Source of the DNA: Acidobacteriota bacterium
GTDB taxonomy: Bacteria > Acidobacteriota > UBA6911
NCBI GenBank assembly: GCA_016934555.1
Contig: JAFGSS010000048.1
Coordinates: 1-33,239 of the forward strand
Reading direction: 5' to 3'
DNA: 33,239 nucleotides
Shown one piece after another: positions 1-4,661 of this stretch. Below the pieces are notes generated by a model. That model did no database searches and had not been told where the DNA came from. It saw only the letters and a list, made by a program, of their open reading frames with translations. Numbering within the stretch: position 1 is the stretch's first letter; each line of letters begins with the position of its first letter. A program made the translations under genes and the position numbers.

Positions 1-2254
1 CCGCCATCGTCACGCGGTCGCGCCCGGCGTTCTTGCTGCGGTAGAGGGCCTTGTCGGCCGCCTCCACGAGCGCCTGGGCGCTGCGGCCGTGGTCGGGGAA
101 GACGGCCACCCCCATCGACGCCGTGATGCGCCCCAGGGGGATCCCGCGGTAGTGGACGTCCAGGCGCTGGATCGCCTCCTTGAAGAACTCGGCCCGCTGC
201 CGGGTGACGTCGCGGCTCCCCTCGGGCAGGATCAGGGTGAACTCCTCCCCCCCGTAACGGCAGGCGATGTCCTCGCCGCGGATGTTGCCCCGCAGCAGCA
301 GCCCCAGCTCCTTCAGCAGCAGGTCCCCCGCATCGTGCCCGAAGTTGTCGTTGAAGTACTTGAAGTGGTCGAGGTCGATCATGATCATCCCCAGCGGGCG
401 CTGGTTCCGGGCCGCCCGGCGCAGTTCCAGCTCGAGCGACTCCTCCATGAACCTCCGGTTGAAGAGCCCCGTCAGCGGGTCGCGGATCGACTGGCTGCGC
501 AGCGTCTCGTGCAGGCGCAGGTTCGACAGCGCCATGGCGATGTGCTCGGACATGGTGACGGCCAGCCGCTGCTTGCTCTCGGTCATCTTGACGTCGTCCG
601 GCTGCATGAGGTGCAGCATCCCGAGCGCCTCGCTCTGCGCCATCATCGGAATGCACATGTAGCCGGCCGGGGCGGGGTGGTGCACGTGGCGGCAGACCAG
701 GCCGGAGCCCGCGTGTTCGACCCAGTGGATGCGCCCCCGCCGCAGCGCCCAGCATTCGGCGGGGGAAAAGGACTCCTCCGCCAGTTCCCGGTTCCCCCAG
801 ACCGCCGCGGCCTCCACCGAGTCGCGGGAGGAGGAGATGACGTAGAGCGCCCCCACCTTCGCCGGGAAGATCTGCTGCGCCACCCGGACGATGGCGCCGT
901 AGGCCTCCTCGGTCGTCAGACAGGCGCGCAGGATGTCGCCCATCTCGTTGAGGAGGACCATCTCGCGCGTCCTCTGCTCGAGCTCGCCCACCCAGGCCTC
1001 GAGCTTCTGGTTCGCCTCTTGGAGCTGCGCCTCCGTCTTCTTGCGCGCGGTGATGTCGCGCGCGATCCCCTGCACCGACACGGCCCTCCCCTCGCGGAAG
1101 AGGGGGCGGGTGCTGACCTCCAGGGCGACGCGCCCGCCGTCTTTGGCCAAAATCTCCAGTTCGTAATTCAGGGGGATTTCGCCCGCCACCTGCGGGTCGG
1201 TCAGCGCCTCCCCAAGGTGGGCGCATTCGGGCGTCAGCAGGTCGGTGAACTTCATCTCGAGCGCCTCGGACCGGGTGTAGAGCGCGATCCGCTCGATCGC
1301 CCGGTTGATCGACAGGATCCTCCCCTCGAAGTCGTGGGTGTAGATGATGTCGCTGGCGTTTTCGAACATCTCCCGGTAGAGCCCTTCGCGCTCCTTCTTT
1401 TCCCCCGTGCCGCTGCGGCGGAAATACTCCCCGGGGTTGCGGAAGACCTCGACCAGGCGCGGCTCCTGGTGCACCAGGGGGAGAAAATGGGCCCGCACCG
1501 CCGGGTGGAGTTCGCTCCCGATTTCGGGGTGCGCCTCCATCCACATGTGCTCCCACCGGACCGTGGCCAGCAGCAGCGTCAGGGAGAGGTACCAGGCGTC
1601 CCCCAGCAGGTCCTTCAGCCCGGCGGTCGCGCGCTCCGCCCCGGGGATCCCCAGAAAGAGGGCCAGGGCGAGGGTGGACACCCCCTCCTCGAACCCGGGG
1701 GTGCCGGCGGGCCAGGCGCCGAAGGGGCGCTCCATGCCGGCCAGGGCCGACAGCGCGCTTTCGATCTCCCCGGCGTCGGGCTCCGGGAGTTCCAGCAGGT
1801 CCCTCACCGCGCGCGCGCCGACCCCCAGCTCGCGCAGGGTGCACGCGTGCACCACGGCGAAATAGGGGGACGTGGTCGAACGGGAGAGGCGCAGCCGGAG
1901 TTTCTCCCTGAAAAGCTCCGGCAGGGGGTTGTCGTAAAAACCGGCGAGGTACCGGCGCCAGAGGTCTTCGAGGATGTCGGGGAACTCGAGGGCGGGGATG
2001 AAGCAGGGGGGGAGGAAGCCGATCCGCTGCTCGATTTCGGCGCGGATGCGGGCCGCGTCCCCGCCGGCGGCCGGGGGCGCCGGTGCGGCCTCCGGGGCGA
2101 GTTCCGGTTCGAGGCGCTTCAGTTCCTCGAGTTTCCCCCAGAGGGCTTCCAGTTCGCCGTCCGTGCTGCCTTCCCGTTCCATTGCGCGATGAACCCGAGT
2201 GAGTAGAATCTGCCCGTGACGCACCAGCGACGACGCATCTGCGGTTTGCTTCAT
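1..2254 (-). CDS. PAS-GAF-GGDEF diguanylate cyclase with N-terminal AhpD-like region (3' end cut by window edge)
   Basis: A soluble sensor predicted to make cyclic di-GMP from two GTP. Reading leftward from an ATG at 2254 there are 751 codons with no stop before the window edge; the last visible residues (GRDRVTMA) align with the end of the neighbouring paralogue, so only a few residues are missing. Order: a helical region (about 60-280) resembling the AhpD/carboxymuconolactone decarboxylase fold, a PAS domain (about 285-405), a GAF domain (about 425-580) and a GGDEF domain (about 590 to the end). The active site is an intact GGEEF at 668-672. An RGED at 659-662, five residues upstream, is a proper inhibitory I-site, so product inhibition is expected. 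DPLTGLFNRRF and DLDHFKYFND are canonical. ATG 2182 is an in-frame alternative start; neither start has a good Shine-Dalgarno sequence. The gene lies 94 bases downstream of a similar gene on the same strand. Confidence 0.9.
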   Translation of the reverse strand, partial: MKQTADASSLVRHGQILLTRVHRAMEREGSTDGELEALWGKLEELKRLEPELAPEAAPAPPAAGGDAARIRAEIEQRIGFLPPCFIPALEFPDILEDLWRRYLAGFYDNPLPELFREKLRLRLSRSTTSPYFAVVHACTLRELGVGARAVRDLLELPEPDAGEIESALSALAGMERPFGAWPAGTPGFEEGVSTLALALFLGIPGAERATAGLKDLLGDAWYLSLTLLLATVRWEHMWMEAHPEIGSELHPAVRAHFLPLVHQEPRLVEVFRNPGEYFRRSGTGEKKEREGLYREMFENASDIIYTHDFEGRILSINRAIERIALYTRSEALEMKFTDLLTPECAHLGEALTDPQVAGEIPLNYELEILAKDGGRVALEVSTRPLFREGRAVSVQGIARDITARKKTEAQLQEANQKLEAWVGELEQRTREMVLLNEMGDILRACLTTEEAYGAIVRVAQQIFPAKVGALYVISSSRDSVEAAAVWGNRELAEESFSPAECWALRRGRIHWVEHAGSGLVCRHVHHPAPAGYMCIPMMAQSEALGMLHLMQPDDVKMTESKQRLAVTMSEHIAMALSNLRLHETLRSQSIRDPLTGLFNRRFMEESLELELRRAARNQRPLGMIMIDLDHFKYFNDNFGHDAGDLLLKELGLLLRGNIRGEDIACRYGGEEFTLILPEGSRDVTRQRAEFFKEAIQRLDVHYRGIPLGRITASMGVAVFPDHGRSAQALVEAADKALYRSKNAGRDRVTMA

Positions 2255-2348
2255 CAGGGGCGGGGGGAGCGCTGTTTGCCTGAAGCGCAATTCTGACCCA
2301 ACTCCCCGGAAACGCCAAGAAAAAAATGCGTTGGGGGAGAGGGGGGCG

Positions 2349-4661
2349 TCAGGAGGCGACCACCACCGAGTCCCCGCCGCCCGAGCGCGCCCGGCCGACG
2401 GCCGCCTCCGCCGAGCGCAGGAGGGCCTCCACCGTCTGCCCGTGATCGGGGAAGAGGGCCATCCCGACCGACGCGGAGATCCGCGCCCCCTCCCGCGCGC
2501 CGGGATACTGCACGTCCATCCCCCGCACCAGGTCCCGCAGCGTCTCGGCGCGCCTCCGGCCGACGTCGCGGCCGCTGTGGGGGAGGAGCAGCACGAAGGC
2601 GTGCCCGCTGAAGCGGCAGGCGATGTCCCCTTTGCGGATCCTGGACTGCAGGAGCGCGGCGGTCCGGCACAGGAGGGAGTCCCCGGCGTCGAGCCCCCAC
2701 TCTTCCGTCATTTTCTGGAACCGGTCGAGCGCCGTCATGATCACCACCAGCGTCCCCTGGGTGCGCGCCGCGCGCCGCAGCTCCAGCTCGAGCGCCTCCT
2801 CCATGAAGCTGCGGTTGAAGAGCCCGGTCAGGGGATCGCGGATCGACTGGTTGCGCAACGTCTCGTGCAGGCGCAGGTTCGACAGCGCCATGGCCACGCG
2901 CTCCCCCATGGCGGTCGCGAGCCGCTGCTTCGATTCGCCGAGCGGCGTCCCGTCGGCGTGGGCCAGGTGGAGCACCCCCACCGCCTCGCTCTGGGCCATC
3001 ATCGGGACGCAGAGGTAGCCGCGCGGAGGAGGGGTCTCCAGGTGCCGGCACAGCAGGCCGACGCCGGTGTCCTCCACCCAGTGCACCCTCCCCCGGCGCA
3101 GGGCCCAGCATTCGTCGGGGGTGAAGGTGGTCGCCATCCGCTCCGTGTCCCCCCACTCGGCGACCGATTCCACGATGTTGCGCAGCGGGCCCATCACGTA
3201 CAGCGCCCCCGCCTCCTCCGGAAAGATCTCCCGGGCGATCCGCACGATCACCTCGTAGACCTCCTCGGTGGTGAGGCAGGCGCGCAGGATGTCGCCCATC
3301 TCGCCGAGCAGCGTCATCTCGCGGGTGCGCTGCTCCAGGTCGCGCACCCAGGCCTCGAGCTTGCGGTTGGCCGCGGCGAGCTCCCCCTCGGCCCTCTTCC
3401 GCTCGCTGATGTCGCGCGCGATCCCCTGGATCCCGTGGGGGCGGCCTTCGCGGAAGATGAGACGGTGGCTCACCTCTAGGGTGAGCCGGGAGCCGTCTCT
3501 GGCGATGACGTCCAGTTCGGCCGTCATCGGCACCGCGTCGGCGATCTGCCGGTCGATCATCCTGCGGGCGGCCGCCCTCGATTCGGGGGCCACCAGCTGG
3601 CTGAACCGCATCCGGAGGGCCTCCTCCAGGGAGTATCCCAGCATCCGCTCGGCCGCCTTGTTCATCGAGGTGATCTTGCCGGAGAGGTCGTGGGTGTAGA
3701 CCATGTCGTAGGCGTTTTCGAACAGTTCCCGGTAGCGCTCCTCGCTCGCGCGCCGGGCCTCCTCGGCCAGCGCCCGCTCGGTCACGTCGCGCACGATGGC
3801 CAGGCCCCCGATCACCTCCCCCTCCCCCGGGCCGTGGATGGGACCGTAGTACCCCTCGAACCACACGCTCCCGGCGCCGCCCGGGACCGTGTAGCACTTC
3901 CCCTTCGAAACGCTTTTGCGCCCCTCGAGCGCCGCGGTGATGTTCGCGTCCTCCCCCAGCTCCTCCAGGAAGGGACAGGCCAGGAAGGCGGGGCGGCCCA
4001 GGACCTCCCCCGCGGCGAGGCCGAACATCCGCTCCATCGCGGGGTTCCAGACGGTGAAGAACCCGTCCCGGTCGAAGGCGATGATGCCGTCGACGCTGCT
4101 GTTGATGAGCCACCCGAGGAGCTGCTTCTCGCTCTCGAGCGCGCGGACCGCCTGGGTGCGGTCGCTCGCGTCCTCGACCACGAGCAGGCACCCCTTCGGC
4201 CCCGCCTCGGGGGAGGCGGAGACGGTGAGCCGGGACCAGAAGCCGTCCCCCCCTTTTCTGACCAGCCGCCCCTCGGCCTTGACCGCCGGCATGACCCCGC
4301 CGGACACCTGCCCGATGAGGCTGGACAGGAGGCCCGTCTCCCCGCCGAGGCGCTCGACGGGCAAGGAACGGAGTTCCGCGCCGGTGTACCCGAACAGGAG
4401 GCCGAACGCCCGGTTGGACCCCATCAGCCTCCCTTCGGCATCCACGAGGGCCATGCCGAGCGGGGCGTCCTCGACGACCCCGGCGGGGAGGGGGGGGCGC
4501 TCCGGGGCGGCATCGCCCGGCGCGCGGACCGGGGCGTCAGGAGCGCTCCCGGCGCGGCGGGGGGACGGACGGAGGATGAGGCTGTGCAGGTGCGCGATTT
4601 CCTCGCGCAGGGACTCCAGCTCCTCTGCAAGATCGCTCCTGGGCGTGTCTTTTGGTTCCAT
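2349..4661 (-). CDS. Multi-PAS/GAF sensor with degenerate GGDEF domain (active site SGHAF, I-site retained)
   Basis: A 770-residue soluble signalling protein. Order: a short helical N-terminus, three PAS domains (about 60-185, 190-305 and 310-435), a GAF domain (about 455-600) and a GGDEF-fold domain (about 605-770). From the third PAS onward it closely resembles the adjacent gene, including the RDPLTGLFNR entry motif, so the two look like a tandem duplication. The catalytic GG(D/E)EF is replaced by SGHAF at 685-689, and the metal-binding loop reads TALDRFQKMTEEW instead of the usual DLDHFKxxND, so cyclase activity is unlikely. RKGD at 676-679 preserves the RxxD inhibitory-site motif at the correct five-residue spacing. 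Degenerate GGDEF domains that keep this site can act as c-di-GMP receptors, which is the inferred role. The start is the ATG at 4661, with only a weak GAG upstream. Probably cotranscribed with the downstream cyclase. Confidence 0.92.
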   Translation of the reverse strand: MEPKDTPRSDLAEELESLREEIAHLHSLILRPSPRRAGSAPDAPVRAPGDAAPERPPLPAGVVEDAPLGMALVDAEGRLMGSNRAFGLLFGYTGAELRSLPVERLGGETGLLSSLIGQVSGGVMPAVKAEGRLVRKGGDGFWSRLTVSASPEAGPKGCLLVVEDASDRTQAVRALESEKQLLGWLINSSVDGIIAFDRDGFFTVWNPAMERMFGLAAGEVLGRPAFLACPFLEELGEDANITAALEGRKSVSKGKCYTVPGGAGSVWFEGYYGPIHGPGEGEVIGGLAIVRDVTERALAEEARRASEERYRELFENAYDMVYTHDLSGKITSMNKAAERMLGYSLEEALRMRFSQLVAPESRAAARRMIDRQIADAVPMTAELDVIARDGSRLTLEVSHRLIFREGRPHGIQGIARDISERKRAEGELAAANRKLEAWVRDLEQRTREMTLLGEMGDILRACLTTEEVYEVIVRIAREIFPEEAGALYVMGPLRNIVESVAEWGDTERMATTFTPDECWALRRGRVHWVEDTGVGLLCRHLETPPPRGYLCVPMMAQSEAVGVLHLAHADGTPLGESKQRLATAMGERVAMALSNLRLHETLRNQSIRDPLTGLFNRSFMEEALELELRRAARTQGTLVVIMTALDRFQKMTEEWGLDAGDSLLCRTAALLQSRIRKGDIACRFSGHAFVLLLPHSGRDVGRRRAETLRDLVRGMDVQYPGAREGARISASVGMALFPDHGQTVEALLRSAEAAVGRARSGGGDSVVVAS

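Follow-up and report, generated by a model that had tools for sequence, protein, structure and literature searches.

Two adjacent genes at the end of the analysed contig, A and B, are probably the products of a tandem-duplicated cyclase gene, of which B would make c-di-GMP and A would be a pseudo-cyclase that binds c-di-GMP and acts by protein contact. To judge from trees and synteny, a gene encoding an AhpD/CMD-like, a PAS, a GAF and a GGDEF domain would have been duplicated in tandem in the ancestor of part of the family. The motifs of B suggest that it retained the active site and makes c-di-GMP under restraint by its own I-site, and A would have lost the catalytic residues and kept the I-site surface whole (RxxD and R313). 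The PAS and GAF modules of A may sense a second input, and c-di-GMP bound at its RKGD motif may lock or alter the A dimer. Because A has no output domain, its signal would be relayed through protein contact, with B as one plausible partner via the shared PAS-coil-GAF-coil region; since A persists where B is gone, it could also read a pool made by other cyclases.

The two genes, their domains and their surroundings

The window is one whole contig of 33,239 nucleotides (G000:C15) from a 3.25-Mb assembly that comprises 233 contigs. Both genes lie on the minus strand, with A upstream and B downstream. Their features are as follows (positions are those of the window).

4661-2349, minus strand: gene A, PAS-PAS-PAS-GAF-degenerate GGDEF, 770 aa, predicted pseudo-diguanylate cyclase
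3771..4103, minus strand: second PAS of A, residues 187-297 (Pfam)
3408..3740, minus strand: third PAS of A, residues 308-418, the one common to B (Pfam and A/B alignment)
2883..3275, minus strand: GAF of A, residues 463-593 (Pfam)
2373..2843, minus strand: degenerate GGDEF of A, residues 607-763 (Pfam PF00990, E=4.7e-34)
2625..2636, minus strand: I-site motif RKGD of A, residues 676-679, PleD 359-362; R and D invariant in 12/12
2595..2609, minus strand: SGHAF, eroded active-site motif of A, residues 685-689, PleD 368-372
1..2254, minus strand: gene B, AhpD/CMD-like, PAS, GAF and canonical GGDEF domains, ATG at 2254
1439..2065, minus strand: N-terminal all-helical domain of B, predicted AhpD/CMD-like fold without the CxxC cysteines
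14..487, minus strand: canonical GGDEF of B (Pfam PF00990, E=1.1e-47)
269..280, minus strand: I-site motif RGED of B, residues 659-662
239..253, minus strand: GGEEF active-site motif of B, residues 668-672

Gene B is truncated by the contig end and lacks only the stop codon and about one residue, since the orthologue in genome G005 ends one residue later. The motifs, spacing and coordinates reported in the preliminary description were confirmed: five residues separate RGED from GGEEF in B and RKGD from SGHAF in A, and Pfam detects a GGDEF domain in both products. Its view of the genes as tandem paralogues holds as well, the gene that it called the right one (A) being upstream on the minus strand; A and B are true paralogues, with 56% identity across 467 residues, from the PAS domain to the C-terminus. 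The claim that they share their sensors holds for the GAF domain and one PAS domain (the third of A), which are common to both, but not for the AhpD/CMD-like N-terminal domain of B, which is missing from A in the genus of the window.

The PAS and GAF domains of A are intact and constrained, and a model of its GAF-GGDEF part predicts an intact GGDEF fold; the PDB entries closest to it are GGDEF structures, and many of these have c-di-GMP bound. A domain search of the A product identified no output domain.

By motif criteria, B is a canonical diguanylate cyclase: GG(D/E)EF, the metal-binding Asp and the GTP-binding Asn and Asp are all invariant across its orthologues. The structural model of its N-terminal domain has a pLDDT of 78, with ten-residue blocks at 82-97 over residues 71-270, and the first 22 PDB fold matches are all of the AhpD/CMD type (probability 0.98-1.00; best match with E=0.018 and probability 1.00). 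Pfam CMD matches three of the ten members of this domain (best E=0.0034), and the score of the copy in the window is below the curated cut-off. In all B orthologues having the domain, the CxxC positions read SPYF, APYS or SPYS, and the histidine after the lost CxxC is invariant. This combination suggests a pseudo-peroxidase-like sensor or dimerisation domain. Among 396 Acidobacteriota genomes searched, with six candidates scored per genome, it was found in this family only, in 10 genomes; a five-genome search gave no match, a result to be read only beside the positive matches of the 396-genome search. A literature search found no report pairing CMD with cyclases, which leaves the absence of such reports unproven. 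In the B genes of the sister genus (L067, L068), glycine replaces the arginine that follows the last helix in the other copies (GRD to GGD).

Upstream of A there is a divergent radical SAM gene, followed by CcmE and a CcmF-type gene (CcmF assigned by inspection). Downstream of B, relatives carry convergent genes for an ABC-2 transporter, SpoU, tRNA-synthetase genes and, in some, a MIP channel gene. No output gene with a tie to c-di-GMP was found among the neighbours up- and downstream of A and B. Promoter and terminator scans found no signal on the minus strand between the two genes, a result that speaks neither for nor against a common transcript. The gap between them is about 25 to 290 bp across the genus, so A and B likely share one transcript.

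Residue conservation in the degenerate GGDEF domain

We compared 12 A-type GGDEF domains and aligned A to WspR chains. Residues of both A and B are numbered as in PleD, and R313 is the secondary I-site arginine of PleD, supplied by the partner subunit. GG(D/E)EF is broken in all 12 domains. D327, replaced by A, S or E, and E371 are gone throughout, K332 is gone in 11 of the 12 (mostly replaced by Q), and N335, G368, G369 and E370 are eroded, each surviving in few sequences only. R313, R359 and D362 are invariant in 12/12, and B keeps them together with the catalytic residues; the equivalent of PleD R390 is absent from both A and B. Because 12 domains show it, the motif pattern of A in the window is not due to chance, and what was proposed from the window alone, a lost active site beside a retained I-site, extends to the whole A-type set.

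The R359 codons in A are CGC, CGG, CGA and AGG, and the D362 codons are GAC and GAT. Since the codon changes at these invariant residues are synonymous, they suggest that purifying selection acts on the amino acids, which is the outcome of the alignment check suggested in the preliminary description. Orthologues with a decayed RxxD, which would speak against a receptor role, were sought among the 12 A-type sequences and none was found. All A sequences carry a lysine at position 360, where all B sequences have glycine or alanine. Residues 676-683 of A form the most conserved eight-residue window of its GGDEF domain beyond the N-terminal helix (six invariant positions versus a median of one).

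These data bear on three alternative explanations of A. It is rather doubtful that the RxxD motif is a structural or historical relic to which c-di-GMP no longer binds, A being a PAS/GAF sensor or scaffold. Such a relic could be explained by the general conservation of the domain: of the 61 GGDEF columns that were fixed ancestrally, 27 have stayed invariant in A, and many of these are plainly structural; random survival of 27/61 columns would retain R and D with P=0.19, or with P=0.08 when R313 is added, so that the column statistics alone are not decisive. RxxD is also near-universal among canonical relatives (75/76), and therefore its persistence in A could be partly structural. However, RxxD is surface-exposed in solved GGDEF domains, and the block containing it is nevertheless the most conserved stretch described above; the secondary arginine R313 is kept as well. 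None of the eight catalytic or GTP sites but all three I-site residues are kept throughout A (one-sided Fisher P=0.006, for sites picked from prior knowledge and not independent along the tree), and we take this contrast to be stronger evidence than the column statistics. Activity of A as a non-canonical enzyme, a weak or altered-substrate cyclase, is very improbable: D329 is found in all A-type sequences and D344 in most, and active cyclases with a substituted first motif residue exist (PMC6637768), but D327, a metal ligand, and the glutamates in the GGEEF motif have given way to unlike residues that vary by species. We give practically no credence to A being a decaying pseudogene, although it evolves faster than B (median GGDEF identity 55% among A versus 78% among B), for all 11 long A orthologues are free of internal stops and the PAS, GAF and I-site residues are strongly conserved.

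Distribution, duplication history and the relation of A to B

The family search covered 15 genomes. The pair, which the preliminary description proposed to look for in related genomes, is present on one contig in ten of them (eight of the genus of the window and two of the sister genus), in all cases on the same strand and in the order A then B. The genes are directly adjacent in nine genomes, and in the tenth (G012) they are separated by a gene for a 663-aa TPR protein. Genome G003 (L065:7156-9483) has A alone: the upstream context is unchanged, an MFS gene occupies the place of B, and the N-terminal domain of B was matched nowhere in this assembly, which is rated 100% complete. Genome G011 has a single catalytic gene with an unchanged downstream context. 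The named relatives with long matches at 51-81% identity are MAGs of uncultured Acidobacteria; one single-copy relative, which is more distant, bears the label 'gp18'.

In the GGDEF tree all A sequences are apart from all B sequences and outgroups (100/97), and the A clade is also single in the PAS-GAF-GGDEF tree (95/94); A most likely lost its catalytic residues once. The A genes of the sister genus (L067:6175-9159 and L068:2-3046, genomes G012 and G014) still bear the AhpD/CMD-like domain, and hence the duplication probably took in the entire gene. In the genus of the window, A has evidently lost this domain and kept the N-terminal ELESLR coil.

Within a genome, A and B are 78-100% identical in the GAF-GGDEF linker, 57-98% in the PAS-GAF coil and 38-62% in the GGDEF domain. 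In the sister genus (L067, L068) the PAS-GAF modules of A cluster with those of B (96/95), whereas the GGDEF heads stay separate, which suggests recombination between the paralogues limited to the sensor modules. At four-fold sites in this genus the A-B divergence is about equal to the divergence between species; any conversion is therefore old.

These observations could also be explained if A served chiefly as a subunit that regulates B, in heterodimers formed through the shared PAS-coil-GAF-coil region, with the activity of B as the readout. Such a heterodimer would be inactive because of its one dead half-site, and c-di-GMP bridging both I-sites would make it product-dependent. We regard this as a possible but tentative explanation. 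It agrees with the linkers being where A and B of one genome resemble each other most, with the joint grouping of the sensor modules but not the heads in the sister genus, with the constant strand, order and near-constant adjacency of the genes, and with the example of E. coli CdgI, a c-di-GMP-binding protein that forms heteromers with active cyclases (PMC5635695). However, mere homodimerisation of each protein would also predict high linker identity, the exchange between A and B, if any, is old, and G003 has A without B. It is unlikely, in our view, that the two proteins make up a product-sensing heteromer in which A, with PAS inputs of its own and c-di-GMP bound at its I-site, sets the activity of B, with sensor modules and coils matched by recombination (in one genus) and heads held apart by selection.

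The preliminary description had further proposed that A and B form a self-contained pair for synthesis and readout. A profile census of the genome found 10 GGDEF matches (eight besides A and B), two EAL, two HD_5 and six PilZ. This genome-wide set of c-di-GMP genes and the retention of A alone in G003 led us to reject a closed circuit, and the lack of an output domain in A also speaks against self-containment. The same genome has another degenerate GGDEF domain (GNQGF) with a retained RxxD (RGTD), located in an open frame that also matches HD_5 (L077, G000:C18). Nearly all relatives flagged as degenerate outside the A clade are cyanobacterial variants in the last motif residue (GGEEL, GGEEI or GGEEM), which are probably active cyclases. 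RxxD is kept in many of these cyanobacterial relatives (L094-L098, L100-L102, L110-L112, L120-L121, L128, L135, L138, L154).

Comparison with known degenerate GGDEF receptors

A pseudo-cyclase that would act as an I-site receptor, as we propose for A, belongs to a well-documented kind; what is new here is the group, an uncultured Acidobacteriota family. At this locus the evolution of a likely receptor from a cyclase can be followed cleanly, with duplication, loss of the active site and an I-site frozen over the divergence of the family, and the catalytic sister B next door is an internal control for A. The heteromer and receptor models of pseudo-cyclases thereby become testable in uncultured Acidobacteriota.

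With the known I-site degenerate GGDEF receptors, A shares the GGDEF fold, the loss of the active site and the conserved spacing of RxxD, and its likeness to CdgA/Bd3125, CdgI, PelD and SgmT makes binding of c-di-GMP by A most likely. In the portions of PMC3271064 that we cite, CdgA/Bd3125 of Bdellovibrio bacteriovorus has a degenerate GGDEF domain (GVNEF) with RxxD five residues upstream, shows no cyclase activity and binds c-di-GMP with a Kd of about 2 uM. The broken GG(D/E)EF and the five-residue spacing to RxxD are as in A. The same portions do not mention a tandem arrangement of CdgA/Bd3125 with a paralogous cyclase, whereas A adjoins B, and A differs further in having three PAS domains and a GAF domain. 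CdgI of E. coli, a stand-alone degenerate GGDEF protein with an intact I-site, heteromerises with other GGDEF domains and has an N-terminal domain common to active cyclases; PMC5635695 does not place it beside a catalytic paralogue, whereas A and B are adjacent. PelD of Pseudomonas and Bacillus cereus is a degenerate GGDEF receptor that binds c-di-GMP via the RxxD I-site (PMC7112168); it is encoded in an exopolysaccharide operon, whereas such genes were not recognised beside A or B. SgmT of Myxococcus xanthus is a sensor protein whose C-terminal degenerate GGDEF domain binds c-di-GMP (PMC4877007), but it has a histidine kinase output, whereas A has none.
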